Origin: Diphasiastrum complanatum
Taxonomy: Eukaryota > Streptophyta > Lycopodiopsida > Lycopodiales > Lycopodiaceae
Reading direction: 5' to 3'
NCBI GenBank assembly: GCA_029204225.1
Contig: CM055097.1
Span: 29,189,192-29,253,191, forward strand
Length of the DNA stretch: 64,000 nucleotides
Under the pieces are notes generated by a model. The model worked only from the letters and a program-made list of their open reading frames with translations, did no database searches and was not told where the DNA came from. Position 1 is the stretch's first letter; the number at the start of each line of letters is the position of its first letter. This document shows, in pieces, positions 2,621-64,000 of the stretch. The position numbers and the translations under genes are program-made.

Positions 2621-2728
2621 AATATGAGACAGTAGATTAAACATCTGCAAGAAGAAGAGGAGCTCGAAACCCTTCAAGATGACTGAACCGGAAGCACCGC
2701 AAACAGAACTGCTCTTGAACATTTTGTC

Positions 2729-11837: not shown

Positions 11838-11932
11838 GTGTTCTCTGGTACCACTGGTATGGTACCGCCGGAACAGTGGTACCGCCGGTACCGTACCGCC
11901 CTGGGATCCGCGATACCAGGGCGGTACCATTT
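11838..11932. repeat. GGTACC-rich block, candidate hAT transposon terminus
   Basis: About 95 bp packed with GGTACC(GCC) words in both orientations (near 11852, 11862, 11879, 11889 and, inverted, at 11922), able to fold on itself. Clustered short subterminal motifs are typical of hAT ends, and a hAT transposase lies 7 kb away. The opposite end was not found, so the link is inference. The AT-rich tract 11933-12000 has no gene. Confidence 0.4.
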
Positions 11933-24412: not shown

Positions 24413-27400
24413 CTAGATCCTCAAAAGCCAGAAAGAAAAATCAATAAGTACCAATCTTAAGTCAAGGTTCAAAATTACAAGACAATTCTAGTAGAAATGT
24501 TTTATTCCATGCGTCTTTATCTCCATGCACACCACACATGCATAGATTTCTTTATGAAGGGAAAATGTCACTCCTCTAGAGGAGATAGAGAAAATTGAAA
24601 TATTTTTTAAGCAATAAAGAAACAACATTAACATAGATACATCAAACAACACTCCCATGTGTCAAATAGAAACTAGACAAAAGCCTTCTACACACTAAAC
24701 ATTCTAAGACTTCCTTGGTAGCACAATGTGTTTGCAACAAAAAGACGAGGTCATTACTACTGGTAATGCTTGTAAAAGTTGTTGGACACATTCATTCTTT
24801 CTCTTCTGACCTCCTGAAGCTGACAACCCTGTCCCTGTATCAAGAAAAACCATGTCACACGAGTCACAATCAAAAGACTTACAGAAACAATTACCCCAAA
24901 CAACCAAATTGCATCGATCCTACATCAACCACTTAGCTATGTGACTAACTTAATTTGATGCATTTGAGCAGAAATTTGAAAAACTGTAACTTGGAGCATA
25001 TACTTAAAAAAACCCTTTTATGTTACAAATTCTAATAACATTGTCCCAAAACACCATACTGTCATACAATACGTCACCTATCTATGACAAATTTGATGCA
25101 ATTTAAAAGTTTATGGATTACCAAAAGAGAACAATGTCAATCATTGCAAATTTCAACATGTACAGCAAAGTACTCAAGGGTTAGAGATTAGAATTACTAG
25201 ATACACTTGGAGAAGTACGGTAACATGGGAAATGACCTAAAAAGAACAACTATAATATCCCAACTTGAATGAATTACATTTACAAACTGTCATCTGCATG
25301 AGAAGCACACCCTATATTAGGACGCAAGTATATGTAAACAGTTCCTAGAAAGAGAACAAACAAATTACAAAAAGATGGAGTCCCTGCAACTAGTAAAGAC
25401 TAGAAATTCAAAAGTCAAATATTTAAGAGATGTAAGTAGTGGTAGAAGTTCCCCATTGTAGGAGAATAATGATTCCATATTTTCAAAAAAAGGCACAAAA
25501 GGACCATGTCCGAGGTGAAGAAAGTGAAAGTGGTCGGCCGGGGAGAGATGGAGATGGGTGTGTCTGTGGGTGCAGTATATAAAGTAGTGGCATATGTAGT
25601 CTAGGTATGAAGGTCGGTGAGGGGAGGTGGGGTACGGGCAAGGAATTCCCTCCAGAAGGCACCAGTGGAGGAACTGCAAAGGGAATCGACTAAGCTTTTC
25701 CCTTTTTGGGTTTCATACACTCGTTTCTTCCGACGAAGGGCAAAATGGAAAGATCAACGAGCTGCAGGAAGGAGATGTGTGTCATGAGATCTAGCTTGGG
25801 TGACTTGGAGATGATGAGAACGACACTCGGCGTCAAAAACTAGGGAGGTCGGATAGGGTGTGGCGAAGTGGGTGGACGTCGATGTGGTTTAGAGGGGAAG
25901 GAAAGGATGCAGCAGTATGGAGTGAAGTGGTAAGGAAGCTAGCTTGAGTTTCCAATGGTGTGTGGTGTGGAACATGACAAAAAAATGAGCTGAAGGCCTC
26001 CTGGTATGTCGGGATGTGGGAGCGATCATAAGTGTATTTGGGTGCTCGAGGAATAAGTGGAGTAATGGGTGGACGGGAAATCGGGATGGATCCGGATAGG
26101 AAGGAGTGATCAGAGAGGGTAGTCGGAAGAATGTGGAAATCAGACATAAGTGGGATAAAAGCTGGTGACCCCATGAGATAGTCGACAACATTGTTTCCTC
26201 CGCTGTGTGGGTGGCAAGTGAGAAGGACATACCCCCGATCTGTAAACCTGACAATGTCTACTGAGAGATCAGCATAAGGAGAACCTGATCCGTCCGCGAA
26301 GGAGGGGGACTTTGGAAGGAAGTAACTTGCTGCAATAAAGAGATCTCTATCCAAACCAATATCTCGTCCGGTGATATGAACCCACATGTATCGTGTCTAT
26401 GCGTCATGTCTAATAAACTCTATAACTGACTGTAGTGACTCTCGATAAAGACATGCAACTCCACCTGAACCCCCACAGCTCGTTGATCGGGCAAATGTGG
26501 GTAGTCCTCGCTCTGGGCTCTCGTGTGTATCCATAAAAAAAGGTATATCTCTGTCTGTGATGAAATCGGAAGATCTCCGGCCGTGGATGATGAGGGGTAT
26601 GTCGTGGATGATGAGTGTATGCCATGACAATTCCATACTCCGAGATGTAGGTGGTGCGGAAGGTGTGGGAGGGGTCCCGGGATGCGCCCATGCCAGGGTA
26701 CCCCAATTTCCTATAGGCTGTTTCCGGATGCAGTACCATCGAGGTACCGAACAACTCCATCTCGATAAATCACCCGTCTTCCGGTAGCTATGGCGGTTTG
26801 GAATGCTTGACGTCTTTCTTCAACTTGGATATAGGTAAGGTCATCATCCATGAAGATTTTGGTGCCTTTCAATTTGGCTCTTTGTCGCAAGGTTTCTTTA
26901 CGATACGTATGTGACATAAAGCGAAGGATCAAAGTAATGGTGTCCTTCTTAGTGCGCCATGCTGTATCCAAACCACTTGCATTATGTCCTAGGGTAGTAC
27001 ATAAAAATCTTTTTGCTTCTTCGATGGCGTTTTGGGTGTCAACGATGCCTCGTACCCTGATATGAAGAGCCTTGGAATCTCAAAGTTTTTCATCCATAAG
27101 AGTAGCAGAAATGAATGATGAGAAGGGGGCAGACTTACTTTTGCCATCGGCTGTCCACGGTGGGCTCGTACTTTTGTCCTTGGTGAGGATGGAAGCCCAT
27201 GATTTGGTGGAGTCTTTGTGTTGGCTCAGTTGCTATTCCAGATCTTGTAGCTTCGTCATTGTCTCTTTTTGCGGCTGGGAACCATGTTTGTTATCTATCT
27301 CTGTCCGAAGTTGTTGGTTCTCTGTACGTAGGTGGATGACTTCCAATTTCAAGCGTCTGCTGTCAGTTCTTTCAGTTGGTAGAGTAGTATCAGATAGTGT

Positions 27401-30400
27401 CAGATACTGCTGCTGCTGAAAAAAGACGTAATACGACCTGTATCAGGAGGCCGTCGCTGACGTCATCTAGGAGGGTGAAAATTGTGTACTCTCGTAACAA
27501 GGCGAGAAGTGTGAACTGCAGCATGACTATGAGTGATACACTGTCTCTGACATCGGTGAGGTGGTATGTCGTCGTCATCCTCGTCGGGCCGAGTCCGTCT
27601 CCTGGTGAAGAAAGACGTAATCTGAGCCTAAGAGCTAGGATGTGGCTGGTGAGCTGTCTGGTACATATCCTGGCGCAGCAAGACCATCTCTTGTAGCATA
27701 AGTACAACACAGCGAGAGTCCTCATATCCCATCAGTGCTCTAAGTGTAGTAGGCATGTCACGGAATAAACAATGATATCTCCCTCTAATCTCATAATATA
27801 TGGGGCATCTGAAGATGAAATGCTCCTCGGACTCTATCTCATGTAGGGGACACAATAGGCATAGTCTCTCCTCTCGTGGTGTACCCTGGAATCTGCCTGT
27901 CTCAATAGCCAACTGATGTGAGGAGATTCTGAACTATCCCAAAATGAAACAGAGACCGTGTGATAGTCCAGAAGACAAATAGTTAGGTAAAACTGGAAGA
28001 CCAGTGGCATCCTGCACTAGAAAGTGAGTCCGGTAGTAGTCAAGCTTAACCCCCAGCGGGGACGCCAGGTACGATCGAGATATGCTCTGTATAAAAAACG
28101 TCTAAAGTACTGGTGTGTACCCAAAGGGAGATCAGTGATAGTGATACCAAATGCTTCCATGAGGAAGTGTGATGCCTGAGAGAACGATGATAGCCGGTAT
28201 CCCTGAGTCTGAAGGTGATGAGAGGACCTGAGAGCAATCCGCGTATATCTCTGCTCGGTATCAGGAAGTGCCTGAGCTCACTGGATGTACGTGATAAGCT
28301 GGAAGGCAGCCTCAAACAAGGCTGAGGGGGTGACGATGGTGTCAAACAGTCTGCACTTACTCGGAGCATCTCAAATAGACTTACAGAAGCAGAATCTCTC
28401 CAACTGGACTAGGGAAGAGTGGCCCTTCCCAAGTCTAGAAGTAGCCGCCTGTCTCATACTGAAGGTAGGACCAGAGAAGAGCACGCCCAGGTAAGTGTAT
28501 AAAGAAACCACCTCTAGGGACTGTCCATCGAAGGTAACCTCCTGGCGCTGCATGAAGGCCCAAGAGGTATTGAAGACCATAACTTTGGTCTTCGAGAGGT
28601 TCACCCCTAAACCCCACTGAGTACAAAAAGTGTGTAAACAGTCCAACTGTCTCTGTAATCCCTCTCTGGTACGAGAGACCACATCATCCGCATAGAGAAG
28701 GATGGCAATCAAAACGTCTCCCAGCCCACAACCGTCCCCACCACAATGAGAGATAACCTGCTCTAGCTCGTCAATATATAATCCAAAGAGAACTGGTGAG
28801 AGAGAGCATCCTTGCTTAACCCCAATAGTGCTCCAGATCTACTCAGAAATGCCACTACCATGACGAAAGCAACCCAAACCCTCTCATAGAGAGCCATGAC
28901 AGCTACAAGAGTAATATTTGTAGAGAAACCTAGGTCTCGGAGTCTCTGGATAAGTAAAGAGCGTGGAACAGAATCAAAGGCTTTCATGAAGTCCACAAAA
29001 CAACAGTAAACCTTTTCTTTCCTGTGTCTAGCTTCCTCAATGATGGTGCGGAGTGTGAAAATGTGATCTGTAGTGGAATAATGAGCGCGGAACCCTGCCT
29101 AACCCAAAGCCTGTAATCTCCTAGACTCTGCTTCTGAGCTAACTGCAGACTGGAGGATGACGCCATATATCTTCGCGAGGACATGTCCAATCATAATTGT
29201 ACGGTAATTACCAGGTACCATGGGGTCACCGTTTTTATGGATAAGATGTATGATGTTGGTGCACCAAGAGGATGGGAAGCCCTCAACAACAGCATGGCTA
29301 AGGAGAGTGGATAATGTAGGGGCAAGGGTATCGGGGGCGTGAATCAATAGCTCAGACTCAAGATCTTCAATGTCTCTGGTGCGGTGGGTTTTCAGCTTTT
29401 TGATTGCTGCCCGAACCAAGTCAGGGGTGAAGAAGGTGAAGTCTGAAGGTCTAGGAGAGATGGAGATGGGCGTATCAGTGGGTATAGTGTAAAGCTGGGT
29501 AGCATAGTCAGTCCAAATATGTAAATCGACTAGAAGAGGGGGAGGGGCACGAGGGATAAACTCACGCCAAAAGGCACCAGAGGAGGAGCTGTGAAGGAGG
29601 TTCACAAGACGATTTCCTTCGGAGTCGTCATAGGCACGTTTTTTGCGACGGAGTGTGCGGTTGTACAATTGCCGTGAAAAGCGGAGAAGATCGCGAGCGT
29701 GGAAACGAGCATATGTACAGAGTGGTGAAGGGATCGGCATTCCGCATCATACCACGGTGGGTGGAAAGGTCGTGATGATCGAGGATGGACTAGTTTGTGT
29801 TTATGAGGTTTAGAGGGAAAAGCCAAAGTAGCCACAGAGTGGAGATAGGTGGTGAGGAAGGCGGCTTGTGACTCCAGTGATTCACTATGTGGAAAAGAGT
29901 GAAGTAAGGAGGTGAGGGATTCCTGGTAGAGTGGGATAGAGAGGGGATGGAAGGTGTATTTGGGTGCACGGGGAAGGGTGGTGGACTAGTGTTGAAGTTG
30001 TGGTGGTGGGAGGTGGCCAGTAGCGAAGGATAGGAACGAATGATCAGAGAGGGTGGTATGGGAGATACGGAAGCTGTGAATGAGAGGAATGGATGACGGT
30101 GACCCAATGAGGTAATCAACCACACTATGACCACCACTGTGAGGGTGACACGTATAGCTGCCAGAGTTAGGCCAGTGAGGTAGGCCATTATAAATGGCTA
30201 ACTCATGTGCCTCACCAAACTGCAACAGGTACTCACCATATGAAGTAATAGGTCCCGGTCCATCATCGGAGATCCTGGTGATCCCCAAGCTGTCACTATC
30301 CAGGGCATGAACTCACAGCTGATCTGTAGCATCATGGAACTCTGTCTGTCGTGAAGCTGTCCGGGCATTAAAATCCCCAGTGAGGAAAATATGCCCCTGC

Positions 30401-32257
30401 TCTGCAAATCTGATGATATCCACCGAAAGGTTCAAGTAAGGTGAGCCAACATCCTCAGCAAAGGAGGAGGACTCTGGAGGAAAATAGCAGGCAGCAATGA
30501 AGACGTCCCTGTCCAAACCAAGCGCTCGTCCTATGATACGAAGCCAAATATACCGTGCATGCTCATCATGCCTGACGAACTCAAACATCTGATGAAGGGA
30601 CTCTCTGTAGAGACAAGCCACTCCTCCCAAACCACGGCCACTGGCTCATCTAGTCTCAGATCTGTATACTGAATCCCATCTGTATCCCGGGAAGACGGGT
30701 AAACCGCGCACCTGGCTCTCGTGAGTCTCCATAAAAAACAATAGGTCTCGTCCAGTGATAAAGTCAATCAGATCACCTGCTGTAGAGGATGAGTGGATGC
30801 CATCACAATTCCATACCCCAATCTGAAGATGGTATGGATGGGGCCCCGGGATGCTCCCACCAATCCCGGGGGCCCCGAATTCCTAGCTCTGGGAACGGCT
30901 AGGGGTGCCAGCAACAAATCGTATCTAACCATCTCGATATATGACTCGTCTACCAGTCTCTCAAGACGCCTGGAAGGCTTTTCACCTCTCCTCAACCTGG
31001 ATGTAGGTAAGATCGTCATCCATAAATATGGCAGTGCCACGTAACTAGGCTCTAAAGCGTAAGGCCTCTTTGCGGCTGTCTAGTGATGTGAAGCGGATGA
31101 TCAGTGTAGCTGCATCCCTGGTGGTCCTCCAAGCTGTATCTAGCCCATCTGTCACATGTCCTAGAGTGGTCTCGAGAAATCTCGTAGCTTCATCCTGGCA
31201 TCCTGTGTGTCCGGTATCCCACGAACCCTGATGTTATGAGCTTTTTGCTCCCTTGACCGCTCTTCCGAAATGGTGGCTGAGATAACTGAGGAAATGGGAG
31301 CGCTAGGTTTGGTGCCTTTCTTCAAGACTGCTGCCCATGAATCTTTATGTTGTTCAATTTTGTGTTCGAGCTCCCATATCATGGTGGTGTGCGTTTCCGA
31401 GGCTGCAACTTGCCTATCGTTGATCATGTGCTCCAGTGAGGCGACTTTAGACTGCAACAGGTTCTTTTACTAAGGAGACCACTACTTCTTTCAAAGGTGT
31501 AAGTTCTTGCTTCAAGAGCTGTAAATCTGCTCTCATTTGGTCAGCTTCCCAAGAGGAAAAGAGTTCAACTAATTTAGAGGGAGTGTAGGGAATGGGTGCG
31601 GTGGCAAGAGTTGTGGATTGGTGTGAGGACGGTGTGGAAGAGGAGGATGAAAGAGAAGCACCGTTCTTGGCAGCCGCAGCAAGGAGTACTGTTGAGGTGG
31701 CAGCAATGGCGTGGAGGGAGATGGGTGAGGTAGCGAGGGGGGTGGGTGAGGTAGCGAGGGGGGGGTGGGTGAGGTAGCGTGGAGGGAGATGGGTGAGATA
31801 GCGAGGGGGGGAAGTGAGGTAGCCGCGAGGGAGGGGGTGGGTGAGGTAGCAACGAGGGAGGGGGTGGGTGAGGTAGCAGCGAGGGAGGGGATGGGTAATG
31901 TAGCAGCGAGGGAGGGGATGGGTAATGTAGCAGCGAGAGGGATGGGGGATGTATCGAAGGGGGGTGGGTGAGGGGATGGGTGGGGTAGCGAGGGGGATGG
32001 GTGAGGTAGTGGGTAGTGTAGCAGCGAGGGAGGTGGTGGGTGAGGTAGCAAGGGGGGTGAGTGAGGTAGCGAGGGGAGGGGGTGAGGTAGAAGGGCGAGG
32101 GGGTAGGACGGTCCTACGGGCAGCACGGGGAGGGACCATCGTTGGCCAGAGAGAGGGCTGGTAGCGATGTCAGATTGCTGGAGAGAGAGGTCGGATCAGC
32201 GCTGGAGCAGCCATGTCAGATCGCTGGAGCAGCAGGCAGCCTTCGCTGGAGGAGCGC

Positions 32258-41300: not shown

Positions 41301-44300
41301 TTGTTGTTTTGTGGACTTCAGGAAAGCCTTTGATTTTGTTCCTCGCTCATTGCTCATCTATCCATACACTTTCTAAAGTGTTTTTTAATGCATTTTGATG
41401 ATCTTGTTGAATTTTTTGGCTTTCTGCCTCAGCCACATACAGATCTGGATCAAATGTCTCCAAACAGCCGATTGCTCAAGATCTTGTTTCATCAAGCTTC
41501 GAAGTGATTTTATGCTTGCATGTTCTTGCACGAAGTCCTACAAGAACTCCTAGACCTTGCATGGTCAGTGCATGCTCTTGCATGTTGTTGCATGAGCTTG
41601 CATGTTGCTTAAACGTTCTTGCATGTCAATGCATGTTAATTGCATGCGGTCTTTTAAGCCTCGAGGCAACTTGTGGGCTTATTAGATCCAAGATCCTCAA
41701 GCTTCCACTAAACTTTGGTGTCTAGAATTGTGTTTTTTCATGCTCTAGGCCACCCCGATTTTGCAGCAGCACTATCCTCCTCACAGCGCCTTCACGATCA
41801 GGGCTACAGGCTATCATGGTTCTCTCAGGCCTCTCACCTCCTACTGGTATCATTTGGCATCTCCATCATAGAGCTCCCCTCCGACACACATCAGTATATC
41901 AGACGCTTCCTTTATCGCACATATCTAGAGCGGACTTGGCGTAACCAGTTAGGGGTTAAGCCAGCTTTCTACCGGACTCATTTCTTGGAGCTAGATGCAT
42001 CAGGGACCCCGGTCATGCCGCGCTACTTGGACTCGGGACTGCCACATTGCCTCAGATTCACATTGGGGCAGCTCAGGGTGTCCTCTCATCAGCTAGCTAT
42101 TGAGACTGGGAGGTTCCACGGTATTCCCAGAGAGGAGCGGATTTGCCAGTTCTGCTCTCTAGGTGAGGTGGAGTCTGAGGAGCACTTTATATTTAGGTGC
42201 CCTGTATATTATGAGATCAGAGGGCGATATCATTGCCTGTTCCGAGAGATGACTACCACTCTACGCTCTCTCATAGCTTATGAGGACCCACGGTGTGTCG
42301 CTCTGCTGGTACACAAGATGTCCAGACTATGGAGAGATTTATACGAGACACCCCAGCATTTTACCTCACAGCCATTGATTACTTCGTTCTTTACTAGACG
42401 GAGATCGCGTGATTTAGTGCCTGAGGATGAGGATTATGATGATGACGACGACGAGGATGATGGCCGCTCTCATGCTCATAGAGATCAGAGACAACCATCA
42501 TGTTACTACCAGGATTACTAGACATTCTACGCAGAGGCGTACTACTACTATTACACATGCACGTGCTCATGCTCATAGCCGCCGCTGGCAGGCTCCACTG
42601 CTTTCCCATTCTGTGGCTCGCATTACATCTTTTTACAGCATCAACACAACAGCAGCAGCGCAGCCTTGACATCTTACCCTAGATACATATGATTATTATG
42701 CGCACTCTCGCATACGTGTCTATTTTAGTTTGCACTAGATGTTTTCTTTATTACAGTTTGGAGACGTTTTTATACGCTCCCATGGTTACCACATACATGA
42801 CATGTACTTCATTAGTTTTATATGCCTTTTGGCATGGAAGACATTAATAAAGCTTTTGGCATGGAAAAGACGTTAAAGCTTAAAGGTCCTAATACTGTTG
42901 TTCTATCACCTCCATCTTCTTTTATCTCGGCTACCTTCACCGAGAGCCGTTTGCGAGAGCAAAAGGCTCTTAATATCCGAATCAGAGGTATTACGAACTC
43001 CCATGATGTTGTTGGTGAAGCTAAAAAGTTTCTTGAAGAGAGTCTTCAACACCACCACAAGGATATGGATACTAGATGGCGACCTAAGAAAGACCCAGAC
43101 ACTCTTGTCATACGGTTTGCATCTACAACTGGCCGTCATGAAGTGCTAGGGAAAAGATCTACACTGCGGGGCACTACGATATACCTGGATGAAGACCTTA
43201 CTTTCATTCAGGTTCAAGAATGGAAAAAGGCAAAACAGGAGGCTATAACGAATGGAAAGCGGCTGATCTATAGGGATGGTATCATTCGCTTTATAGATAT
43301 TAAACATGTTGCTACTAATGAGATATCTGAGATTATTCAGAGTTAGTGTGAGAGTTAGAGCACTGAAGAGATGCCAGTTGAATCTGTAAATGGTCTTCAT
43401 ACCATATAATCCTGGACACTATCCTCTTCTTAGTTAGATTGTTTTTCAGTTATGTTGCTTGACGGCATTGCTCCGTCTTGAGTCCACTTTACTTGATGTA
43501 CTTGCTCGTCTTATACGCCTTTTGGCATGGAAAAGACGTTAATAAAGCTTCTTCTTCTTCTTCTTCTCTCTCTCCTTCTCTCAATTGCAGCTCCCTCGCT
43601 GATCCATAGCCCGCTGATCCACAGTCCGCTGATGGCTCCACCCTGCACCTGAACCTCCATCGCTGAGCTCCAGTGTTGCCCCCTGTTCATCGCTGCAATT
43701 GCAGCTCCCTCGCTGATCCATAGCCCGCTGATGGCACCTGAAATCTGACTACAGGTCTGATCCTTTGTGTAGCGCTCCATTACCTCTCGCGATGGCCCCT
43801 CCACCTCGCACCAGCCTTACCCGTAGGACACGCTCTCCTGCTGCCACCTCACCCCCTCCCACCCACTCCCCTGCTGCCACCTCACCCCTTCCCACCGCTG
43901 CCCCAGCCTCCACGGATGTCACCACAGCCTCCAACGCTGCTCCTGTAGAACACATTGCTGCCTCTGACTCCATCGCTGCCTCCTCCATCACTGCCTCTGA
44001 CTCCAGCGCTGCCCTTCCCATCACGACTTCCATCGCTGCCCCACTCCAACCTACTGTTGTGGCGCCCCCTCTGGATGTACAGTTGCCGAGGTGGAACCTG
44101 TCCGCCCACCAATCTCGACCCTGCCTGCTCATCCCGCTCCTACGCTCCAGCCCGTTTCGGTCTCTCTCTCGTTTCCTGAGCCCATCCTCCCCAAGCCGAC
44201 TGATGCTATCTTCCTCACGGCACCACCATCTACAACAAATATCCCATACACGCCCTCCAGATCAACGGAACTTTTCTCCTCTTGGCAGCTCGACCAAATC

Positions 44301-47300
44301 AAGACAGATTTCCAGACTTTGCGGCAAGAAATCTCGCAGCTGAAAGGAACGGTTTCCTCTCTGATCAACGAAAAGACTATGCTGCAATCCAGAGTTGCAT
44401 TGTTCGAACAATCCATTGGGACCAAACAGGTTGCAGTCGCGGAGTCCACCACCAATATGTTACGGGAGCTAGAAACCAAGCTTGAAAAACAGCAGGAAGA
44501 GGCACTTTCTTGGGCATCCGTTTTGAAAACGGGCACCAAACCAAGTGCTCCCATCTCTTCGGTTATCTCAGCCACCATATCAAAAGAGAAGTCTCGAGAT
44601 CAAAAAGCCCACAACATTAGAGTTCGCAGGATTCTGGACACACAGGACGCCTTGGCTGAAGCCAAACGCTTTCTCGACACCACTCTCGGACACATGACAG
44701 ATGGACTAGACACCGCATGGAGGACCACCAGAGACGCAGCCACACTCATTATCCGTTTCACTTCTCTGCAGAGTCGTCGAGATGCTTTGCGATGCAGAGC
44801 TAAGCTACGCGGTACCACTATCTACATGGACGACGACCTCACGTATATCCAAGTGGAAGAGAGACGTAAGGCCTTTCAAGTAGCCCATGAGTCTGGCAGA
44901 CGAGTTATTTACCGTGATGGACGAGTGCGCTTTTTTGGTAGCGCTCCTAGCAGCTCACAGTGCTAGGGATTTGGGGTCCCCGGGTTCGGGAGTGCCCCGG
45001 GGCCCCATCCACACCATCTCCGGATTGGAGTTTGAAACTGCGATGGTATACACTCATCTTCCATAGTTGGCGACCTAATTGATTTCATCACTGGTAGAGA
45101 CTTATTGTTATTTATGGAGACTCACGAAAGTCGGGAACGAGGATTACCTATTTTTCCAGGATACAGATGGGATTCCGTATTTAGGCCTGAGACTAGATCA
45201 GCTAGTGGTCGTGGATCCGGACGGGTGGCATGCCTATACAGGGAGTCTCTTCATTGGAGTATTGAGTTCATCATACATGACGAGCATGCACGTTATATCT
45301 GGATTCGTATTGTTGGACATGACTTTGGTTTGGATAGGGACCTCTTTGTGGCAGCATCTTACTTTCCTCCAGAGTCTTCATCTTTTGCAGAGGGCACAGG
45401 TTCACCATACCTTGATTTGTCACCCGATATTATCAGATTCGCAGAGCGAGGGCATATTCTCCTCACTGGGGATTTTAATGCCCGAACCTCCTCACGACAG
45501 TCAGAGTTTTATGACGTCACCGACCAGCTCCGCATTCACGCCCTCGATAGCGACGAGATGGGAGTTACCAGGATTTCAGAGGACAGCTTGGGACCTATTA
45601 CCCCCTATGGTGAGCATTTGTTGCAGTTTGGAGAGGCACATGAGTTAGCCATTTACAATGGCCTAACTTGCTGGCCAGATTCCGGCAGTTATACATGTCA
45701 TCCTCACAGTGGCGGACATAGTGTTGTACACTACCTCATGGGATCACCATCCTCCATACCTCTCATCTCTAATTTTCACATCTCCCCCACCACTCTCTCT
45801 GATCACTCATATCTCTCCTTCGCTATTGGTCGCCTCCCACCCCCCTAGTTATCCTCACATCCAATACTTGCTCGTGCACCCAGGTATACATTCAGCTCTC
45901 TATATGCACCCAATTACCAGGAATGTCTTTCCTCCCTACTTCATTCCTTTCCGCATGATAGCACAGTCGAGGCTAAAGCAGGTTTCCTTAGCACCTCTCT
46001 TCATACCGCTGCTTACCTAGCCTTTCCATCCAAGACCCATAAAGGCAAACACACACGTCCCTCATCCCTACGTCCTCCACACCCCCCATGGTATGATACC
46101 GAGTGTCGCTCTCTACATCATCTTGTCACCCATGCCTGCATTCATGAACCTCACCTCCTTCGCTCCACCCGACGCTCTCTCCGTCGCACACTCCGCCAGA
46201 AAAAACGCGCTTTTGATGACTCCGAGGGAAAACGTCTTGTTGACCTTCTCTTCAGTTCCTCTTTAGGCGCCTTTTGGCGTGAGTTTATCCCTCGTGCTCC
46301 ACCACCCCTCTTGGAAGACCTTCGCATATGGACCGACTAAGCTACCAGCCTATATACCATACCTACTGACACACCCATCTCCATCTCCCCTCGTCCCTCT
46401 GAGTTTACCTTCTTCACCGCTAACATGGTACTTGCGGCCATCAAGAGAATGAAAACCAAAAAATCAAGAGACATTGAGGACCTCGAATCTGAACTCCTAA
46501 TCCATGCTTCCGACCTCCTTGCTCCCACCCTAGCCACTCTCCTCAATTCCGCCGTTGTCTCTGGCTTCCCTTCATCCTGGTGCACCAACATCATCCACCC
46601 TATCCACAAAAATGGTGATCCCATGATTCCTCGTAACTACCGCACTATCATGATCGGGCACGTCCTCACTAAGCTTTATGGCACCATACTCCAATCTGCA
46701 GTAAGTTCAGAAGCGGAATCCAAGAGATTACATGCATTGGGACAGGCAGGTTTCCGAGCTCATTACTCTACCACTGACCATATTTTCACACTTCGAGCTT
46801 TGATTGAGGAAGCCAAGCACAGGAAAGAAAAGGTTTATTGCTGTTTTGTGGACTTCAGGAAAGCCTTTGACTCTGTACCACGCTCCCTGCTCATTCAGCG
46901 ACTTCGAGATCTTGGTTTCTCCATGGATATTGTTCTGGCAGTGATGGCTCTTTACGAAAAAGTCCTGGGATGTTTCCGACATGGTAGTAGCATCTCTAAT
47001 CATATTTGGAGCACCATTGGGGTGAAACAGGGTTGCTCTCTTTCGCCGGTCCTTTTTGGACTATACATTGATGAGTTGGAGCGAGCCATCACACAGTGTG
47101 GCGGAGCTGGATGTAGACTTGGCACCCTTTTGATTGCTATTCTCTTGTATGCGGATGATGTGGTACTAGTATCCCGGACCAGAGAGGGATTACAGAGACA
47201 ACTGGATTGTCTACAGGTTTTCTGTACCAGATGAGGCTTGGGCGTGAACACTGCGAAGACTAAGATTATGGTCTTCAACACTTCTCGAGCCTTCATGCAG

Positions 47301-50300
47301 CGCCAGGAGCTCATGCTTGATGGACGGGCTTTAGAGGTAGTTTCCTCGTATACCTATCTGGGAATACTCTTCTTTGGTCCTACTTTCAGCATGCAACAGG
47401 CAGCCACCACCCGACTTGGGAAGGGACATTCCTCCCTTGTTCAGCTTGAGCGGTTCTGCTTCAGGAAGTCCATCCGAGATGCTCGCAGTAAGTGCAGACT
47501 TTTTGACACTATTGTCACTCCCACGGCCTTGTATGCAGCAGAGATATGGTGTACAGGTCTCCCGTCATCACACTGGGCCAGCATTTCACGACTACAGACC
47601 ACCATGCTAGCTCGTATGATTCGGGTGAAGTCCTCGGTCCCACACGAGATTCTTCTTGCAAAGTTTGTCGTTCCACCCATTCAGATAGCTGCAGCATCCC
47701 AGCTCATCGCTTATATTCAGAGAGTTCGGGATCTACCAGATACAGACACGAGATATACCCGGGCCTTCATGACCAGGGCTATCGACTGTCGTGGTTCTCA
47801 CAGGCGTCCCATTTCCTCCTTGATTCATTTGGCATATCCATCACAGAGCTCCCTTTGGGTACCCACCAGTATATCAGGCGCTTCTTATATAGAGCGTATC
47901 TCGACCGCACTTGGAGGCGACAGCTTGGGGTTAAACCCGCCTATTACTGGACTCATTTCATTGAGCTTGACACAGCAGGGTTCCCTGTTTTGCCACACTA
48001 TTTGGACTCGGGATTATCGCATAGCCTCAGATTTACATTGGGACAGCTCCATGTATCATCACATCAGTTGGCTATTGAGACTGGGAGATTTCAGGGCACC
48101 CCGAGAGATGAGCGGATTTGTCAGTTTTGTTCCCTGGGTGAGGTGGAGTCGGAGGATCACTTTATCTTTAGGTGCCCTGTGTATTACGAGATCAGAGGGA
48201 GATATCACTGTTTGTTTTGTGACACACCTTTCACACTACGATCCCTCCTAGCCTACGAGGACCCCAAATGTGTCGCACTCATGTTACGAGAGATGTTTAT
48301 TCTACGGCAGGACCTCTGTCAGACAGCCCAGCGGAGTAATATTTATCAGCAGCAGATCCCCTCTTTCTTTTCTAGGAGACGAGGACGAGACTTTGTATCT
48401 GATGAGGATGAGACAGATGACGACTTACATGCCCACAGAGATCAGAGACAGTGTCCCACTCATACTCATGTTGTTGCACGAGTTACCCGACCTATCAGGA
48501 GGAGGCCTAGCGGATTTGTCCCTCTCTCGCGGATCAGTACCCGCGGATCTATCCTCGTGGATCCCCCTCTCGCGGATCTGTCCTAACCTGAGCGGGTCTC
48601 ATGCCTGTCCTAGCCTGAGAGCACGATGCTGCCTGTGGTGCCCTGACCTGGTTCGCCCTGCACTGGTCCACCCTGCCCTGGCTTGCTTCCTCAACCTGAG
48701 CGGACCTGCGGCACAATTTGGTGTTGACCACTTGCTGACCAGCCTACAGGGTTCTTGCTGCACAAAGTTGTCCTATGGCTCCACGCAACAAACGAGGAGG
48801 GAGGTAACTCCCCCCACTCTCCACCACGCCCTGCTTTGGAAGGCTCGGAAAACACCAAACTGTCCCCCACATCTGAGTTTTTGGTACCTGCTCCTGCCAT
48901 CGTACCTGCTTTAACTGATCTGTCCACCGCATCTACATCTGAATCCAAGACTGATGCCCGCTCTGCTGTCGACACATTTGCGGTGAATCAACTACCCACA
49001 GTTGATTATACCCCTTCCAAACCTACTGAAGGCCTCTTTGCTTATGACATCAGCTTTATTCGACAAGAAATCATCGGACTCAAAAGACAATTACACTTCT
49101 TTGAAATTGAGAACGGCAAGTTGGCTTCGGATCTCTATGGGGTTAAAGAGCGAATGGAGCAGCTTGAACAAGAAAATATATATCTTAAGCAAAGGATTGC
49201 GGAACATATCCCTCAAAAGAATATATTGGAGGAGACGTCAAACAAAATATCCAGCCTTGAGAAACAAGTGGAGGAAACGAAGACATGGGCAGCGCGTTTC
49301 AAAAACGATGGTGAGGTCGAATCTTCAAGCTTGGTTCAACATCCAGTTGTAGCCTTTACGTATTGGTTTTTGGAATTGTAATGGCATACTATCATCTTCT
49401 TCAGCAGGTGACTTCCATTCTTTCATGCTGAAATGTGATATCCTTTTGTTAGCAGAGACTCATGAATCCTTATATAGACCGCTCCCATCCATACAGGATT
49501 GCACCTGGCACTCAGCGCATCGGCCCTTTGTGAGAGGGAAGACCTTCCGTGGTTCTGGTGGTGTTGCATGTCTCACCAAGGATGTTTTCAGTTCTCATCT
49601 TAAACTGGTCAAAAGTGATCCATTTGCACACTTTATTTGGTTTCAGTTCTCTGGTCACTGTTTGGGGTTTTCTCAAGACCTCTTTCTTGCAGTTTGTTAC
49701 TTTGCACCACAGACATCATCGTTTGCAGATTTTGGTGGTGACCCTTTCCAAGCTCTCTCAGATGATATATTCAGCTTTGCACAGCGAGGCCTTATTCTTT
49801 TAGCAGGGGATTTTAATGCTCGTACGAGCATCAAGCAAGCTGAGTTTTATGCAGAGAGTGATTTTCTACAGGTTCACACATTAGATATGGGCTTTGACAG
49901 GACCTCACAGGATGCAGATACTCCAGCTACCCACTTTGGAGAGCGGCTGATTGGTTTAGCAGAGGCTCATTCCTTAACCATTTTGAATGGCCTTCCTTAC
50001 TGGCCTTCGTCATATCATTTTACTTGTCACCCACATGGAGGAGGACATAGTGTTGTTGACTACTTCATTGGGTCACAGGCTTTGATCCCATTTCTTCATA
50101 CCTTCCGCATTATACCTCCTACCATTTTTTATCACTCCCTCCTACTTCTATCCCTTGGTCATCATAGTACCACAGTCACAACACACCGTCCCACTCATCA
50201 CCATCGCCCGGTTTTCTCTCCATCTGGTTTTCCCCTTTACATCGAGTCCCTAGCTACTTTTCTCCAAGACTTCCCCTTCACCTCCTCAGTTGACCAACAA

Positions 50301-53300
50301 GCTATCTTTTTATCTCAGTCTCTTTTGCAATCTGCCAATACTGCCTATCCTTCGAAAACCTTCCCTTCGCATAAACGCACTCACAACAAATGGTATGATA
50401 AAGAGTGCTTCTCATTGCATAAACAAGTTGTATACGCTAGCCCGCTCCTATTGCTATTGAATCATGGATAAATTATGCTACTAAGCTTTATACAGTTGAC
50501 TTTCTTTCCATTTCTCTTTCCCCACGCCCTTCAGAATTCACCCTCTTTACCCCGTCCATGGTTGAAAACGCCATCCAAAATGGTCAAACCCAAAAAGCCA
50601 CTGATGTTGACCTCCTAAGTATGGACTTCCTAAAACCAGTTGCTCACATTATTGCCCCATACATTTCCCATATCTTTAACCAATCTGTCATCTTCGGTCT
50701 CCCCACATCGTGGTGCACCAACCTTTTACACCCTATCCTCAAAGTCGGGGACCCCTTGATTGTCGACAACTATCGCACTATAATGATCAGTCATACTATG
50801 GCCAAGCTATATGGATCCGTTTTAAAGTCTATTGTCAGCTCACGGGCAGAGACAGAGGGGTTACATGCTATGGGACAGGCAGGTTTTCGCGCTGGCTACT
50901 CCACGGTTGACCAGATATTCATCTTGAGATGCATTATTGAGGAGGCTAAGTTCAGGAAGCAGAGGGTTTATTGTTGCTTTGTGGATTTCCGCAAAGCCTT
51001 TGATTCTGTTCCGAGACACCTTTTGCTCCAGCGCTTAGCATCGCTTGGCTTTTCTCAGGAGATCATTGCTGCTATCGTCACATTGTATGAGAGAGTGCTG
51101 GCCCGTTTTCGAGATGGTGATGGATGGTCCTCTTACATTCATAGTACAGTGGGAGTTAAGCAGGACATGGAGTTAAGCAGGGATGTCCTTTGTCCCCTAC
51201 TCTCTTTGCTTTATATATTGATGATCTTGAGCGGATTATTAGGGAGGAGGGTGGAGATGGCTGTCCGTTAGCAGATATGATTATCCCTATTCTACTGTAT
51301 GCGGATGATGTGATACTTCTATCGAGATCCACATCTGGGCTTCAGCAGCACCTTGATGCTTTATATACTTTTTGCCAGACATGGGGTTTCATGGTGAACA
51401 TTGGTAAGACTAAGGTCATGGTGTTCAACACCAATCGACAACATATGAGAGACACAGTGTTCTACTATGATGGGCTTCCACTGGAGATAGTAACCTCTTA
51501 TACTTACTTAGGTGTCCTTTTTACTGGTCCATTGCTCACTTTTAGACCAGCTGCATTGTCTAGGCTCCGCAAGGGGCACTCTGCTCTTGTCCAGATGCAG
51601 AGGTTTTCCTCTATTTACTATGTACATGATCCTAATACGTGTTATCGCCTTTTTTCTGCCACCGTCTCTCCGGTGGCTCTACATTCAGCAGAGACGTGGT
51701 GTCCTGGCTTGTCCAGAGATACTTGGAGTGATATTTCACGTTTGCAGATCCTTATGCTTAGCCGGATGATCCGTGCGAAGCAGTCAGTTCCCCATGATAT
51801 CATACTGGCAGAGTTTGCCTCACCACCTCTGATTGTCGAGGCTATATTTCGGATTATCACATTCATTCATAGAGTCTCGGAGCTTGATTCATCCAGATAT
51901 GTTGCTACAACTTTCACATCCTCTCACAGTCTAGCTAGTCAGCTCTCATGGTTTCAGTGTGTTTCTGACCTTTTGAGTAGGTGGGGTTTATCTATATCTG
52001 ATCTCCCGAATGGGACACACGCATATATCCGCCAGCAGATTTATAGAGCTTACATCAGCACAGTGTGGTCTCACCCAGATCCTGCACGGGTCAAGCTTCA
52101 TTTTTATCACACTCATCTTCTTCAGCTTGATGTATCCGGGCTTCCCATTCGGCCGGGTTATTTGTCTCAGACGTTATCTTTCGGCCTGCGTTACCATCTT
52201 GGTCATTTTAGGGTCTCTTCTCACCAACTTGCTATTGAGACAGGCAGATACACAGACACACCTCGACCGCTACGGATTTGTCAATGCTGCTCTTTACAGG
52301 AGATTGAGGATGAGTTCCATTTTATTTTCCGATGTCCAGCCTACTATGAGATCAGAGGCAGATACCATTGCTTATACAGAGATACTCCACTTACACTTGC
52401 TTCTTTCCTTGCCTTCTCAAATGCGAGATGTGTTGGTTTATTGTTACGAGAGATGTTTACTCTGAGATCTTCCTTTTTATTGGATGTTTCTGATGTGGAT
52501 CATAGCCAGTCCCACATTACGCACTTTTTAAATAAAAGGGATAGAGATGAGACTTCTGACAGTGAGATAGACATTCTAGTACGACGACCGAAGCTCCAGC
52601 ATCCTCTTCGCTCCTCCAGGCCCAGGGCTCTTCACCGGAGGCCAACACCTACTTCTCACCATATCACGCAGTTTTTTATATCCCTTATTTCAGTTTTCTC
52701 TTTCCCTCTGTGTAGCTGGTGGTTAAACAGAGCTGGAGGTTAAGCTTTGTTTTTCTCTCTGTTTTCTAGTGCTAGTTTAGCTGTTAGGAAAAAGTCCTAC
52801 ATGGACAATGCTCCTTCTTTTTTGATGTACTTTCTACTTGTCTTATGTGCCCTCGAGTACTTGACAGACATTAATATAATTCTAATTCTAATTCTAATTC
52901 TAATTCTCTCTCTCTCTCTCTCTCTCCACCCTCCACCCATGCCACCCTGTAAGGCGCCTCCCCGCTCCCCCCTGCCACGCAGGCACGGCAGCAGCGCCTG
53001 CCTGCGTGGCAGGGCCTCCCACCGCTGATGCTGCTGACGCTGCCGCCACCACCTCCTCGGCCTCTGCTGCTCCAAAACTTCCTTCTACTGCTGCTCCAAA
53101 ACTTCCTTCTACTGCTGGCCTCCTCCGGATTCCTAACCTACTGCTATTTCCTCTTCTTCGTCCACTCAAGAAACTGCACCTCCCTATACTCCATCAAAAT
53201 CCCCCGAACTGTTCTTATCTTGACAAGAAGATTAATTTAAAGCCGATTTCCATAATATGAAAATAGAACTCTTGCAGTTGAAAGAAACGGTTGCAATGCT

Positions 53301-56300
53301 GATTATGCAAAGGAATATGATGCAGTCCAAGATTACACATTTGGAGCAAGTAATTGGCAACAAACAGATTTCAGTCTCCAAAACATCGATGTACTCTTTA
53401 CAAATGTACAAATTGATTCAATTTGTAAGTTGAAGGACACAAACCAAATAAGTCATTCGAGTGAGCCCTGTTATATTATCACTATAGAAAAATGTGATAG
53501 AATCAACAAGCTGATAAATCAAACAGAGCTAAAAATATTTTCCAAACTGAACTCCTTTAGTACACATAAGGCAACAGGAGAGAGAATCTTCTTAAAGTAA
53601 ATGTTGTTACCAGGCTTCGCTTTGGCTCCAGAACACTATTAAGCCTTTCCAAAACACTATCTTCGGCAAGGGAGATTTCATCCACAAGGAATAAATCACC
53701 CTCTTGCATAGCCTCTACAAGAGACCCATCATGCCACACAAAAAGTGACTGCCAATCTTTATGCAATTCCTTTAACTTCTCCTCAATGGACCAGATTTCG
53801 GCTGCATCTGTTGTATTGGGTTCAATCACAGCATGCTGCCGACATTCAATCTCTTCTCTTACTTGCTTTAAAATCCGCAACAATGTAGTATGCTCTTCAA
53901 TTTTTGAGGGTAGCTGAACAGGAACAGCTTGGACAACTTACAATTTGGAAATGCCAGTGAGTCATGAACGTTTGGAAATGTCACAGAATACATGAACATT
54001 CTCTTTGAGATATCAGAATGGGCAAAGTTCGAAAATAACTAAAACATCAACTTACCTCCCCTTGAAAAGTACCACAAAATAATTTTGTTGCAGCTATGTT
54101 CTTCACAGCATCGTGATATTGTAACAGGATGCTTTCTTTGTCACGTACTGGACGATACCCCTATCATCCCAAGAACTGATGTTAAAAATGAACAACTGCA
54201 AAAACACTTCAGCCTTGTTCAAAAATTACAAAACCGAAAAGAACCCAATTATCCACAATAACTTATCACGCTTAAAAATCCTTGGGAAAAAAACAGCCCA
54301 GACTTAAATAAAAATTACCCCAAGAAAATCTGAAGTTTCAGTGTTTTGATGACAATTCAAGATCCGAAGACGTTGCCCAAGGGCAAAAGCCAGCAACTGG
54401 AAAACTGTAGTTTTTCCGCATCCGGTCTCTCCAACCAGTAGGGTGGGTTCCCTGTGCTCATAACACTTGTTCACCAGGTAAAACAGGCGCTTCATGCTTT
54501 TGGTCCAGACAATTCTACAACAGGAAACACAATAGGACACAGGAGACATAAGAGAAGCTTCGGTATCATGACAAAGCTTCAAACTCAATCAGTACAAACT
54601 TATCAAATTCTTTTTGATTGAGAATAGAATCTGCTGCAAAGAACAAGTTCACAACTTAGTCAAAGTCAAAAGTCGAATATTCAACATACTTGCCAAACTG
54701 AAGAACAGCTTCTGGTGACTCCAAGCACTTCTGAAGGCTTTCCAACCTCAAGTCGCCAGCAAACTTCGAAAATCAACATGCCAAAAGTCTATAATGTGAT
54801 AAAAAATGATCCATACTAATTTGCTAATTGCATTCCTATCCCAACTCCACACTCATGCAAAGAAATACTCAACTCACAAGAAAAAAAAAATATAGCGTTT
54901 GAGGAAATCGAAGCATCAGACAACGTAGTTTTAGTTTCAATTCTACAGGCAGTGGTTTACAAGACATGACATGTCTCATAATAAATTGTATAGATAAAAA
55001 GATAGACAACTTAATGTCAAATTCTCCCCACCACAAGGTACATAAGCAATCGATCTGTATCCATCACAAGGTTTCGGTCGGTGACGAGAGCTATTACCTT
55101 AGCATACTAATACTTTTCAGTCAGAAGAGCTACCGAAAAATGTATTTCTCCCTATTTCGGCTCTGTTTTTTTTTTTTGAGTTGCTTCAAAAACAAACTAG
55201 CAGCCATAATAGCACAGTTCAATATAGCATGTCAAGCAAAATTGAGTCATCTGACTACCAATACAAAAACATGAGTAGTCTTCTTCTCAATTGAACTTAT
55301 ATTGACCTTTTTCAAGAATACAATGTCCAATATATCACTAATGTAATGCAATAAACATCACACATCATACACGCGTCCAACAAGAAGGCATAGGTTCATG
55401 ATTACTGACGTGCATTGTTTATCTTTGATTTGTTGGGATACAGCGCATTTAGTTAGGAGTCAGGACATGCAGCAGTTACAACACTGTAAAGATTTACAGA
55501 TGCCCTTTACAACCAAAATTTTACCAAAGCACAACGCAACGGTCAAGAGGACAGTCTCGTTATAAAACTGTAAGACCAGTAATAAGGAGAAAAGAATTGT
55601 CTTGTAAACTGCAACATCAGCCCTCATCATTAATTTAAAAACCAAGTTCTCCAACAGCTGACAGATACAAATAGGTAGAGAAAGAGAAGTTGCTCTTCCA
55701 TGAGTCAGGCTGTAACAAACAGTTTGAGACTGGAAAGTGTAAAACAGATATACCTTATCATATAGCTTAGTAATATCAAGCTCAACGTGCATATGTTTCT
55801 CCAGAGTTTTTTGAACAACATTCTTCTCAAGCGGGTCACGTAACCTTTCTGCAAGAAGCATGTACCCACTCATGGCAAGATCTTCATAAGATATTCCAGT
55901 CTTCTTGTGCCTCTCAGCCCACCTAAACAGATCCCTTGGGGTAATAAATCCATGTTTTCCAGCAAAAACCTTACTACCCTGTCTGTGTCTTTGCAAGTCT
56001 TTCATGACATCCACCATCTTGGCAGCATGGCTGGGAGGTATCTGACAACGCTTTTCAAGTATGGCTGACAACTCATTTTCAGGTATGTCGTCTACATGAA
56101 GCTCCATGAAACGGTTTCGAAATGCTCTGGAAAGCACTTTTCGCCCTCCGTACAACCCTGGAGGATTTTGTGTTGCAAATAGCATGAAATGAGGGTGTGG
56201 TTTTATGGTTTGCTGGATTTCTGGTATAAAAAGCTCCCGATTGTCATCCAGCAAACGATTTAATGCCTCCAGTACATCTGGAGGAGCCAAATTAAGTTCA

Positions 56301-59300
56301 TCAAGCACAATCCAATAACCTTTGCGAACAGCTTCAACGAGTATTCCATCCTGGAAAACAAGCCTCCCTGATAGATCAGTCATGTACGTACCAAGGTACT
56401 CTTGTAAATCTGTATGTTCATGATTATTGATCCGAACAAAGCGATGACCAGTTCTATCAGCAAGGTATTCAATCAGGCTGGTTTTTCCACTAGAAGTCGG
56501 GCCTTGCAAAAGTACTGGATATCTTCGCACAAACACAGCCCTTGCAAGATTTTTCAAATTTTGTTTCACACTAGCTGTAAGGATGTAAGGGTTGTGGGGT
56601 GAAAGTGAAGAGTCAAATGGTTTTTCAACTCCTCTCTCCAACCAAAATTGCTCAACAAGTATGTAAGTAGGACCAGGCTCAGGTGGTGCTTTTGACAACA
56701 ACTTCCAGTCTCTCACCGATGCAGCATTTTTCTTAAAAATGATTACTGCAATGAGTTGCTCTACAATTGGTGCACTTTCAAGATCTAGAAGGGTTAAAAA
56801 TGACATGCAAACTCCATCATACAGAGCTCTATTGAAGCCATATACCGGCATCGCGATTTTAGTATACTCCAAAGCACGTGAAAGGCTTCGAAGACTATAA
56901 TGAGGCTTTTGACCAGCTCCATCAAGTAATCTTGTGTTGGCTTCCTCACGTGCTTGTAAATAAAAGTTGACAATCTCTTCCACTGGGGGAGACGGTAAGA
57001 GCTGTTCAAGATACCCATTTACAAACAGACTTAGATCTTCTCTGTTTATCATCTCATCTATGTAAAACTCTGTGAATCGATTCCTCAATGCCATTGGCAG
57101 ATCTCTCTTTCCCACATCAGTTGCTGGGTTCATGCAAGCAAATATTCGAAAGTTAGGACTGCGAGAGATAGTATTGATGTCGCCTCGTTCTGTAAGGCTA
57201 ATGGTTCCGTGTTCACCTTCCAGAACACCACTCAACCTTTCCAATGTCTCTCTTGGTGCTAAGTTCACTTCATCAAGTAAAATCCAATGACCATCACGCA
57301 ATGCCTTCACCAGAGCTCCTTCAACAAAAGAAAAAGCAAATGAAGTATTTGCAGCTTCTACCTGCCTCTCAGCATTACTCACATCAAGGGAAAACTTTTT
57401 CCATTTGTCAAGTAACCTCTTATCTATTGCACGCTTTCTCTTGCGACGCCCGTCTGCAATATCCTCACTTGGAGAAATAACAATGTTCAGAGTGGATGAC
57501 TCAGAGAGTTTAGCGACCTTAGTCACAGCCATCTGAAAAGCCTTAATCAATTGAGCCCACTTCCTAGACTCGGCAAAATGCTGTATTCTTGACAAAAAGT
57601 CTGCATTTTGCTGCAAAAATGGTTATAATATTTATGAGAGGATAACCAGTCATTGAAAAACTACCTGCTCAATTTTTTTTAATTAAAAGGAAAGTACCTA
57701 ATGACAAAATATCATCTTGTCAAATACCTGTGAAGGAAATGTGAGAGCAAACAGATTGCTGAATTTTTCAAGCAGCAGTAAACAAGTGCCTTGAGCTTCC
57801 ACAGGCTTGTAACCTCCCAATAACTCGGTGCTATCACTTTGTTGACTTAAGTTCTGCAAAAAATTAGGAGAAGCTGAGGAGGTATCCTTTGATATTACAT
57901 GGTGCATAGCAACAAGAACTTGGATTCAAGACAAATATAGCAACAGCTTACTAGAACAACTAATGGGACTGCTAGCTGGCGAGCCAGATGCTGCACAAGA
58001 GTGGTCTTTCCTGTGCCTGTTTCTCCAACTAATAGCGCAGGCTCCTGTTGTTCAACACACATTGCTATGTGCTCCATACTCCGCATTGCATGCCCAGTAT
58101 GTATGAAAACACTATTTGAACCAGCCTTGATCTGCAACACCAGATCCAGGACTGGCTAAATCAACCCTTCTATTACAAAAAAACCTCTACACCAAAGAAA
58201 ATAAAGGAATATGAAATGTATAGCCATTTCACCTGTGCACCATGTGAAGCCAAGATGGCACGACCAATGTGGAGAGAAGATGGGAAGACCTGACAGAGAA
58301 AATACAGATGATATACTAAACATTTCATCTAGAAACATTCCAAACAACCTCCAGCATACAAAAAGTGTATTCACACTTGTATAGCAAGACATAATATTGA
58401 CTCATTTAGGGAGAGATTATAAAAAATGAGGACCTGCAAGGCAGGTTTCAATAGCTGATCATAAAAATTCACACGTCCCAAAGGTATGTCCCATTGTTCA
58501 GCAATAGCCCTCATAACAAGCTGTCGATCTGCTGAAGAATGTATAGCACCAACAAAAATATCCAGGGCCTGCACCAGATGGTTATGGCTCCTTAATAAAA
58601 AGCATAGCCAGAAGCGATGAGGAAATTCTACTTCAAATGCTTTTTCAGAATATTTGTGTTCAATAATCTTGCCATTTCATCCTAAAATGTAAAAAAACTA
58701 CCTCAACATAGACCCGCTCTTTATATGCACTTGTTTGTGCAGTCCGTCCAACAGCTATTAAGCCAGATTTTGCTATCCTCTGACACCACTTCATCAGGTC
58801 CCTGCAATGTGTGTAAAGCCATAAAGTCATCACGAACAGAATGGTAAAGGATGAAGTAGTATGACATAAAGAGAAACATCGAATAATTTGCAGGCTCTAA
58901 GGTAGTCTATCAACAAATTCTAATGCTTCATTGAGGTAGTCAAAACATGTACGTAGTGTACACCATATATTCCACATTTTCTACTTCCAAATGTAACTCA
59001 TACAACAAACCTTGTGGAAAACTGGCGCTCGATATGCACAGAAAGGTTCCCAAGTGTGTTGACATGTATGCTAGATTGCGAGCCAATGTCTTTTAGCATG
59101 TTAAATGTCCCTGAAAGCAAGAAGCACATAAACCAGAGGTTCACAGAAGTTCTTGTGACACTTTGAATATTACTCAAAGGTAAGAGATGTCCAATCCATA
59201 CTGGTCAATAGGTAAATCTCCACCACGAACATATGCTTTTGCTTTTCCTTGTTCGCACCAGCCAAAGGAGCCTATAGCAAGGAGGAACTAAAAGAGAAAA

Positions 59301-61636: not shown

Positions 61637-63875
<2,239 letters not shown>

Positions 63876-63912: not shown

Positions 63913-64000
63913 ATGGCCCGTAAAACCAGGGGGAGCCCTTGCTCCCCCAACACCCCCCAGCCCTTGCTCTTCATCATTCCAACCTGTGCAGAAACTATTT
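63913..64000 (+). CDS. Start of another LINE ORF1, cut by the window end
   Basis: ATG at 63913 opens MARKTRGSPCSPNTPQPLLF and stays open to the window end. The basic then Pro-rich start resembles ORF1 of copies H and I, and the short leader after (CT)n (CCAGCG...) resembles that of copy K. The family assignment is inference from position and composition. Confidence 0.5.
   Translation, partial: MARKTRGSPCSPNTPQPLLFIIPTCAETI

Follow-up and report, generated by a model that had tools for sequence, protein, structure and literature searches.

Three copies of one LINE family share the same arrangement at the boundary between their two genes: ORF1 ends with UAG, a GC-rich hairpin begins exactly 6 nt further on, and the ORF1 frame continues past the stop codon into the start of the ORF2 endonuclease. 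The best reading of this arrangement is probably type III stop codon readthrough (UAG-G plus a 3′ structure), which would yield an ORF1-ORF2 fusion protein. The three copies, H on the forward strand and K and L on the reverse strand, are the junctions that keep both sides, ORF1 end and ORF2 start, within the window, i.e., the whole 64-kb stretch of DNA analyzed.

The window contains many pieces of this family. The element is a non-LTR retrotransposon (LINE) with an RVT_1 reverse transcriptase (PF00078, E-value 5e-24; 46425..47231 in copy H, + strand) and an APE-type endonuclease, for which two Pfam matches fell just under the cut-off. The C-terminal part of ORF1 is possibly RRM-like, as suggested by a low-confidence model (mean pLDDT 48.5) with weak matches to RRM folds (best E-value 0.03); its sequence gave no PDB match at E-values up to 10 and no Pfam family above the cut-off. 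The window is eukaryotic; its other features include a midasin-like AAA exon of 718 codons with no internal stop (55463-57616, −) and Ty3-type gag ORFs in opposite orientation (1047-1997, +; 2579-4066, −).

Copies H and K differ at 0.79 synonymous and 0.10 nonsynonymous changes per site in the C-terminal part of ORF1 (96 codons), at 0.65 and 0.14 in the endonuclease (377 codons) and at 0.71 and 0.10 in the reverse transcriptase (181 codons), where only the part of K ORF1 downstream of its frameshift was compared and any codon with a stop or a gap was excluded throughout. For ORF1 of H and L, the values are 0.87 and 0.26 (138 codons). Since synonymous sites are near saturation while the proteins are conserved, the conservation of the junction is not due to recency. 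Judging by these rates, H, K and L are old lineages which were long under protein constraint and kept the junction meanwhile. All three are decayed today by in-frame stops and frameshifts; 100 ORF1 codons of K include four stops, and L is frameshifted soon after the start of the endonuclease. A further copy, M (48755-52743, +), has an ORF1 that ends abruptly behind the coiled coil and passes into ORF2 out of frame; in its ORF2 frame, at 49350, a TAG stands just before PLRIGFWNCNG. Lacking the C-terminal part of ORF1 as well as the hairpin, M was left out of the junction count.

In copy H (+), the C-terminal part of ORF1 (44547..44963) is followed by the stop codon TAG, the candidate readthrough codon (44964..44966), the spacer GGATTT (44967..44972) and a hairpin of 34 nt (44973..45006). 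The corresponding features of copy K (−) are TAG at 30883..30885, the spacer GAATTC at 30877..30882 and a hairpin of 37 nt, with a loop longer by 3 nt, at 30840..30876. In copy L (−), TAG is found at 26711..26713, the spacer GAAATT at 26705..26710 and a 34-nt hairpin, two of whose 11 pairs are broken, at 26671..26704. Every hairpin has the form GGGG…CCCC. When the whole window was scanned on both strands for the hairpin pattern, only the H, K and L junctions matched. A G stands directly 3′ of UAG in all three junctions, the contexts being UAG-GGA in H and UAG-GAA in K and L; the alternative purine octanucleotide of type III readthrough is absent. Past TAG, the ORF1 frame extends to GVWNC(D/H)GIHSSS in every copy, with TGA replacing the Trp codon in H. 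The sequence thus bears out the initial annotation, which had described both this layout and the continuous frame. In addition, it had claimed that ORF1-only pieces of the family lack the hairpin, which is true of the two such pieces in the window (one at 42822-43346, the other a fragment that ends at 63587, both +), each of which has a short 3′ tail.

The position of the stop codon is as constant as the spacing behind it. The distance from the ORF1 motif RF/RY to TAG is exactly 10 codons in each of the three copies, with the intervening sequence strongly diverged: within the 30 nt before TAG, L is identical to H at nine positions and to K at 11, compared with 19/22 and 18/22 in the stem. The initial annotation had offered the alternative that an ancestral CAG, or another sense codon, once joined both ORFs into one polyprotein and that TAG arose independently in each decaying copy. 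In methylated DNA, decay commonly turns CAG into TAG; every copy shows decay, and K indeed has TAG in its reverse transcriptase where H and M have CAG. However, stops are rare per aligned codon, each counted once (H 3/838, K 8/766, L 2/256). At columns with CAA or CAG in another copy, the counts are H 1/32, K 1/22, L 0/9 and M 0/5, and two copies share a stop at no other aligned column. Multiplying the three rates, which are rough and based on few events, gives about 3e-7 per codon; for a Gln codon, with the pooled rate taken for L, the value is about 4e-5. Moreover, the stop would lie nine residues after the last strand of ORF1 in the low-confidence model, and the ORF1-only pieces end 17 and 21 codons after RF, i.e., 7 and 11 codons further on than H, K and L. 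Given the near-saturated synonymous sites and the conserved proteins, TAG is most simply ancestral, and we give very little credence to a triple coincidence of this kind. A reassigned code with TAG read as Gln was rejected as well, as four ORFs of 292-719 codons contain 82 CAA/CAG codons and no internal TAG; the ordinary genetic code is in use.

The predicted energy of TAG plus hairpin is −25.1 (H), −26.7 (K) and −18.5 (L) kcal/mol. In a survey of 7,666 GC-rich 37-nt windows, taken every third base on both strands of the 64 kb, the junction hairpins were the second, fourth and sixth most stable separate places. Some of the junctions are equalled in stability by hairpins at 52975-53011, close to where ORF1 begins in another LINE fragment, at 11893-11929, in sequence without a listed long ORF, and at 63913-63949. 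GGN and CCN codons are reverse complements of each other, and a hairpin could arise as a by-product of a Gly/Pro-rich peptide or of GC-rich composition. After dinucleotide shuffling, 30, 13 and 31 of 200 sequences (H, K, L) folded at least as stably, corresponding to z values of only −1.1, −1.7 and −1.0; shuffles fold nearly as well because the runs of G and C alone make a hairpin. The fold is nevertheless lost on randomizing synonymous codons. With the codon usage of the element, z was −4.5, −4.3 and −3.9 (H, K, L) and 0, 4 and 15 of 10,000 randomized sequences were as stable; with uniform usage, 5, 20 and 38 were. Among 654 overlapping coding windows of the H, K and L ORF stretches, treated in the same way with 400 draws each, the junctions ranked second, fourth and fifth, the top window being in the endonuclease of K. 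Further, GC-rich third positions are not the norm of the element (in the ORF2 frame of H, GC3 is 0.47), and the substitutions in the linker between TAG and the Trp codon (W) of the endonuclease start have no third-position bias. At seven hand-picked codons of the stem, third positions differ in 0/7, 2/7 and 2/7 cases against a background of 50-68% (P = 0.008, 0.036 and 0.070, values which are not independent). The hairpin is therefore stronger than its peptide requires, and the Gly/Pro content does not explain it. A mere by-product is very unlikely in our judgment.

A structure close to the stop is predicted in all three copies, but it does not covary and is weak when measured against dinucleotide shuffles. 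The term “covarying”, used in the initial annotation, has to be withdrawn: only one of the 11 stem pairs varies compatibly (C-G, U.G or U-A), two pairs break in L, and in a covariation test of the three copies no pair was significant, with the observed values equalled in 333 of 500 shuffles. Pairing of the loop with downstream sequence, as in a pseudoknot, was at chance level, 769, 936 and 997 of 1000 shuffles being as good. No Rfam family matched at its gathering score within the window. When a longer stretch was folded with RNAalifold, the final base of UAG, together with the two bases that follow it, could pair with UCC past the stem in all copies (44966-45010 in H, likewise in K and L), which would consume part of the spacer.

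The linker measures 22, 23 and 25 codons in H, K and L, respectively, and contains no further stop. Its alignment has two length differences, of 3 and 9 nt. Differences at codon positions 1/2/3 amount to 3/4/6 between H and K (22 codons), 4/2/3 between L and K and 5/3/4 between L and H (13 codons each); no protein-coding pattern is detectable here. Beyond W, the picture changes. ORF2 sequence begins in H with the endonuclease from (W)NCDGIHSSS (45033..45845, +), in K from WNCDG (30004..30813, −, with in-frame TGA codons) and in L with WNCHGIHSSS (26606..26635, −), where the frame is broken shortly downstream. For the 26 codons after W and before the sequence METHES, H and K differ at 2/2/14 sites in codon positions 1/2/3, a clear protein signature; these codons evolve as protein. 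Protein constraint on the in-frame region after the stop is thus present from W onward and not detectable in the linker.

The Met of METHES had been proposed as the first in-frame ATG of ORF2. This holds in H (45114-45116, +) and K, whereas L has the matching ATG outside the ORF1 frame owing to the shift after the endonuclease start. In copy M, the Met is replaced by Ala (AETHES), whereas WNC.GI does not vary among H, K and M if the TGA of H is read as W. The protein constraint upstream of METHES, together with the Ala in M, implies that translation must begin before METHES, in agreement with the earlier claim that a start at this Met would come too late for the enzyme. WNC.GI.SSS aligns with the first Asn motif of the L1 endonuclease, which we take to contain the catalytic Asn, but with a sequence score at noise level (PDB 2v0s: E-value 1.2 for the whole query, 1.8 bits for the WNC.GI.SSS stretch). 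In a low-confidence model of the endonuclease (mean pLDDT 46.8), WNC.GI.SSS would form part of the first strand and METHES would lie at the end of the second; the best PDB match of the model is the human L1 endonuclease (E-value 2e-7, TM about 0.4-0.5).

The main rival, and a serious one despite being rather unlikely, is a separate start of ORF2 at a non-AUG codon of the linker, either by reinitiation after ORF1 or through internal entry; the hairpin would then slow ribosomes that scan or have just terminated, as downstream structure may in the LINE SART1. Initiation close to the 3′ end of the linker fits the onset of constraint at about W. Reinitiation in SART1 needs structure downstream of the stop-start site (PMC5972666), and an ATT located three codons upstream of W is present in both H and K. 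However, this codon is common to these two copies only. Between TAG and W, none of the three copies has an in-frame ATG, nor is any near-cognate start codon common to them, so that the conserved initiation codon upstream of WNCDG which would have spoken against the initial annotation was not found in this sample of three. In addition, the ORF1-ORF2 frame is intact up to W in every copy despite the indels, and with a separate start a UAG at a fixed distance of 6 nt from a stem would have no obvious purpose. The least probable reading is that the hairpin serves another step, such as packaging, RNA stability or a splice or RNP signal, while ORF2 is expressed from a spliced or a shorter RNA. The fixed position of the hairpin 6 nt after the stop in all copies argues against this, and a transcript with ORF2 alone would also have to supply a start codon upstream of W.

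We prefer readthrough because a single mechanism then accounts for stop, frame, spacing and hairpin as well as for the lack of an AUG. The element would then be a two-gene LINE in which ORF1 and ORF2 are in one frame with a single UAG between them. Some of the ribosomes finishing ORF1 would encounter the GC-rich hairpin with its stem starting 6 nt past UAG, near the mRNA entry site; a near-cognate tRNA would outcompete release at UAG, and the ribosome would continue across the linker of 22 to 25 codons into the endonuclease. The products would be much ORF1 protein and little fusion of ORF1, linker, endonuclease and reverse transcriptase. That UAG is read through is what we infer from this layout, as are the frequency of the event, the amino acid put in and the part played by the stem. 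Against readthrough stand the absent covariation, the weak z values of the dinucleotide shuffles, a linker that does not look coding, the absence of a pseudoknot, the 6-nt spacer and a sample of three decayed copies. As originally put forward, the readthrough reading keeps its support from the TAG maintained across lineages, the constraint on ORF2, the strength of the hairpin and the type III layout, but loses that from covariation.

How LINEs synthesize their second protein at a low level is only partly understood. We lean slightly toward the view that this lineage adopted virus-like UAG readthrough, with a hairpin as stimulator and ORF2 made only as an ORF1-ORF2 fusion. If so, a retroviral and plant-virus solution would be added to the list known for LINEs, a covalent ORF1-ORF2 protein would be predicted, the ratio of RNA-binding protein to enzyme would be fixed as in retroviruses, and a recoding element both short and easy to test would be at hand. 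A literature search, which did not cover most subscription journals, found no LINE in which UAG readthrough joins ORF1 to ORF2. Relatives were sought in other sequence collections: the H reverse transcriptase matched none of 17 candidate stretches in viral contigs, a three-row reverse transcriptase alignment matched one of 20 (18 residues, locus L001), genome contigs gave no match among 22 candidates, and plasmids had no match to the 121-nt junction.

Among known systems, the plant retroelement SIRE1 reportedly uses stop codon suppression to make an envelope-like product, going by the title of the report; SIRE1 is an LTR element. The 2A motif of StopGo recoding is D-V/I-E-x-N-P-G-P. All three linkers carry PGP, preceded by A in H (APGP) and by I in K and L (IPGP), and do not match this motif, so that StopGo was rejected; PGP and the non-LTR nature are shared with L1Tc-type elements, which have a 2A signal (PMC5972666). 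Besides 2A peptides, the LINE solutions described in PMC5972666 are reinitiation and stop-start coupling. SART1 represents the latter, with UAAUG and a downstream structure (PMC5972666). Our family resembles it in being a LINE with coupled ORF1 and ORF2 and RNA structure downstream of the stop; in contrast to SART1, no AUG overlaps the stop or follows in frame before W, unlike the stop-start overlap of SART1-type reinitiation, and ORF2 shares the frame of ORF1. Mammalian LINE-1 likewise has ORF1 followed by an ORF2 with an APE-type endonuclease, the fold which our model appears to match best, but its two ORFs are set apart by a 63-nt spacer and its ORF2 has an AUG (PMC5972666), whereas here no in-frame AUG precedes the first endonuclease motif.

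The closest parallels are viral. Type III contexts described in PMC3542737 include UAG-G in gammaretroviruses, UAG-GGR in Tombusviridae and UAG-GGG with a compact stem-loop in rice stripe necrosis benyvirus. The LINE junction is unlike these in that it has a simple hairpin and not a pseudoknot or long-range pairing, a spacer of 6 instead of 8 nt, and a non-LTR retrotransposon as host element, with readthrough as a candidate only. Of the retroviral gag-pol layout invoked in the initial annotation, UAG-G and the compact 3′ structure are present (PMC3542737), but the 8-nt spacer and a pseudoknot above the level of shuffles are not, and a gammaretroviral gag-pol signal proper was rejected. What the junction does share with gammaretroviral gag-pol, the Tombusviridae replicase and the benyvirus coat protein extension is a UAG followed by G, a 3′ structure a few nucleotides downstream, and an extension or enzyme ORF in frame (PMC3542737; PMC4178896).
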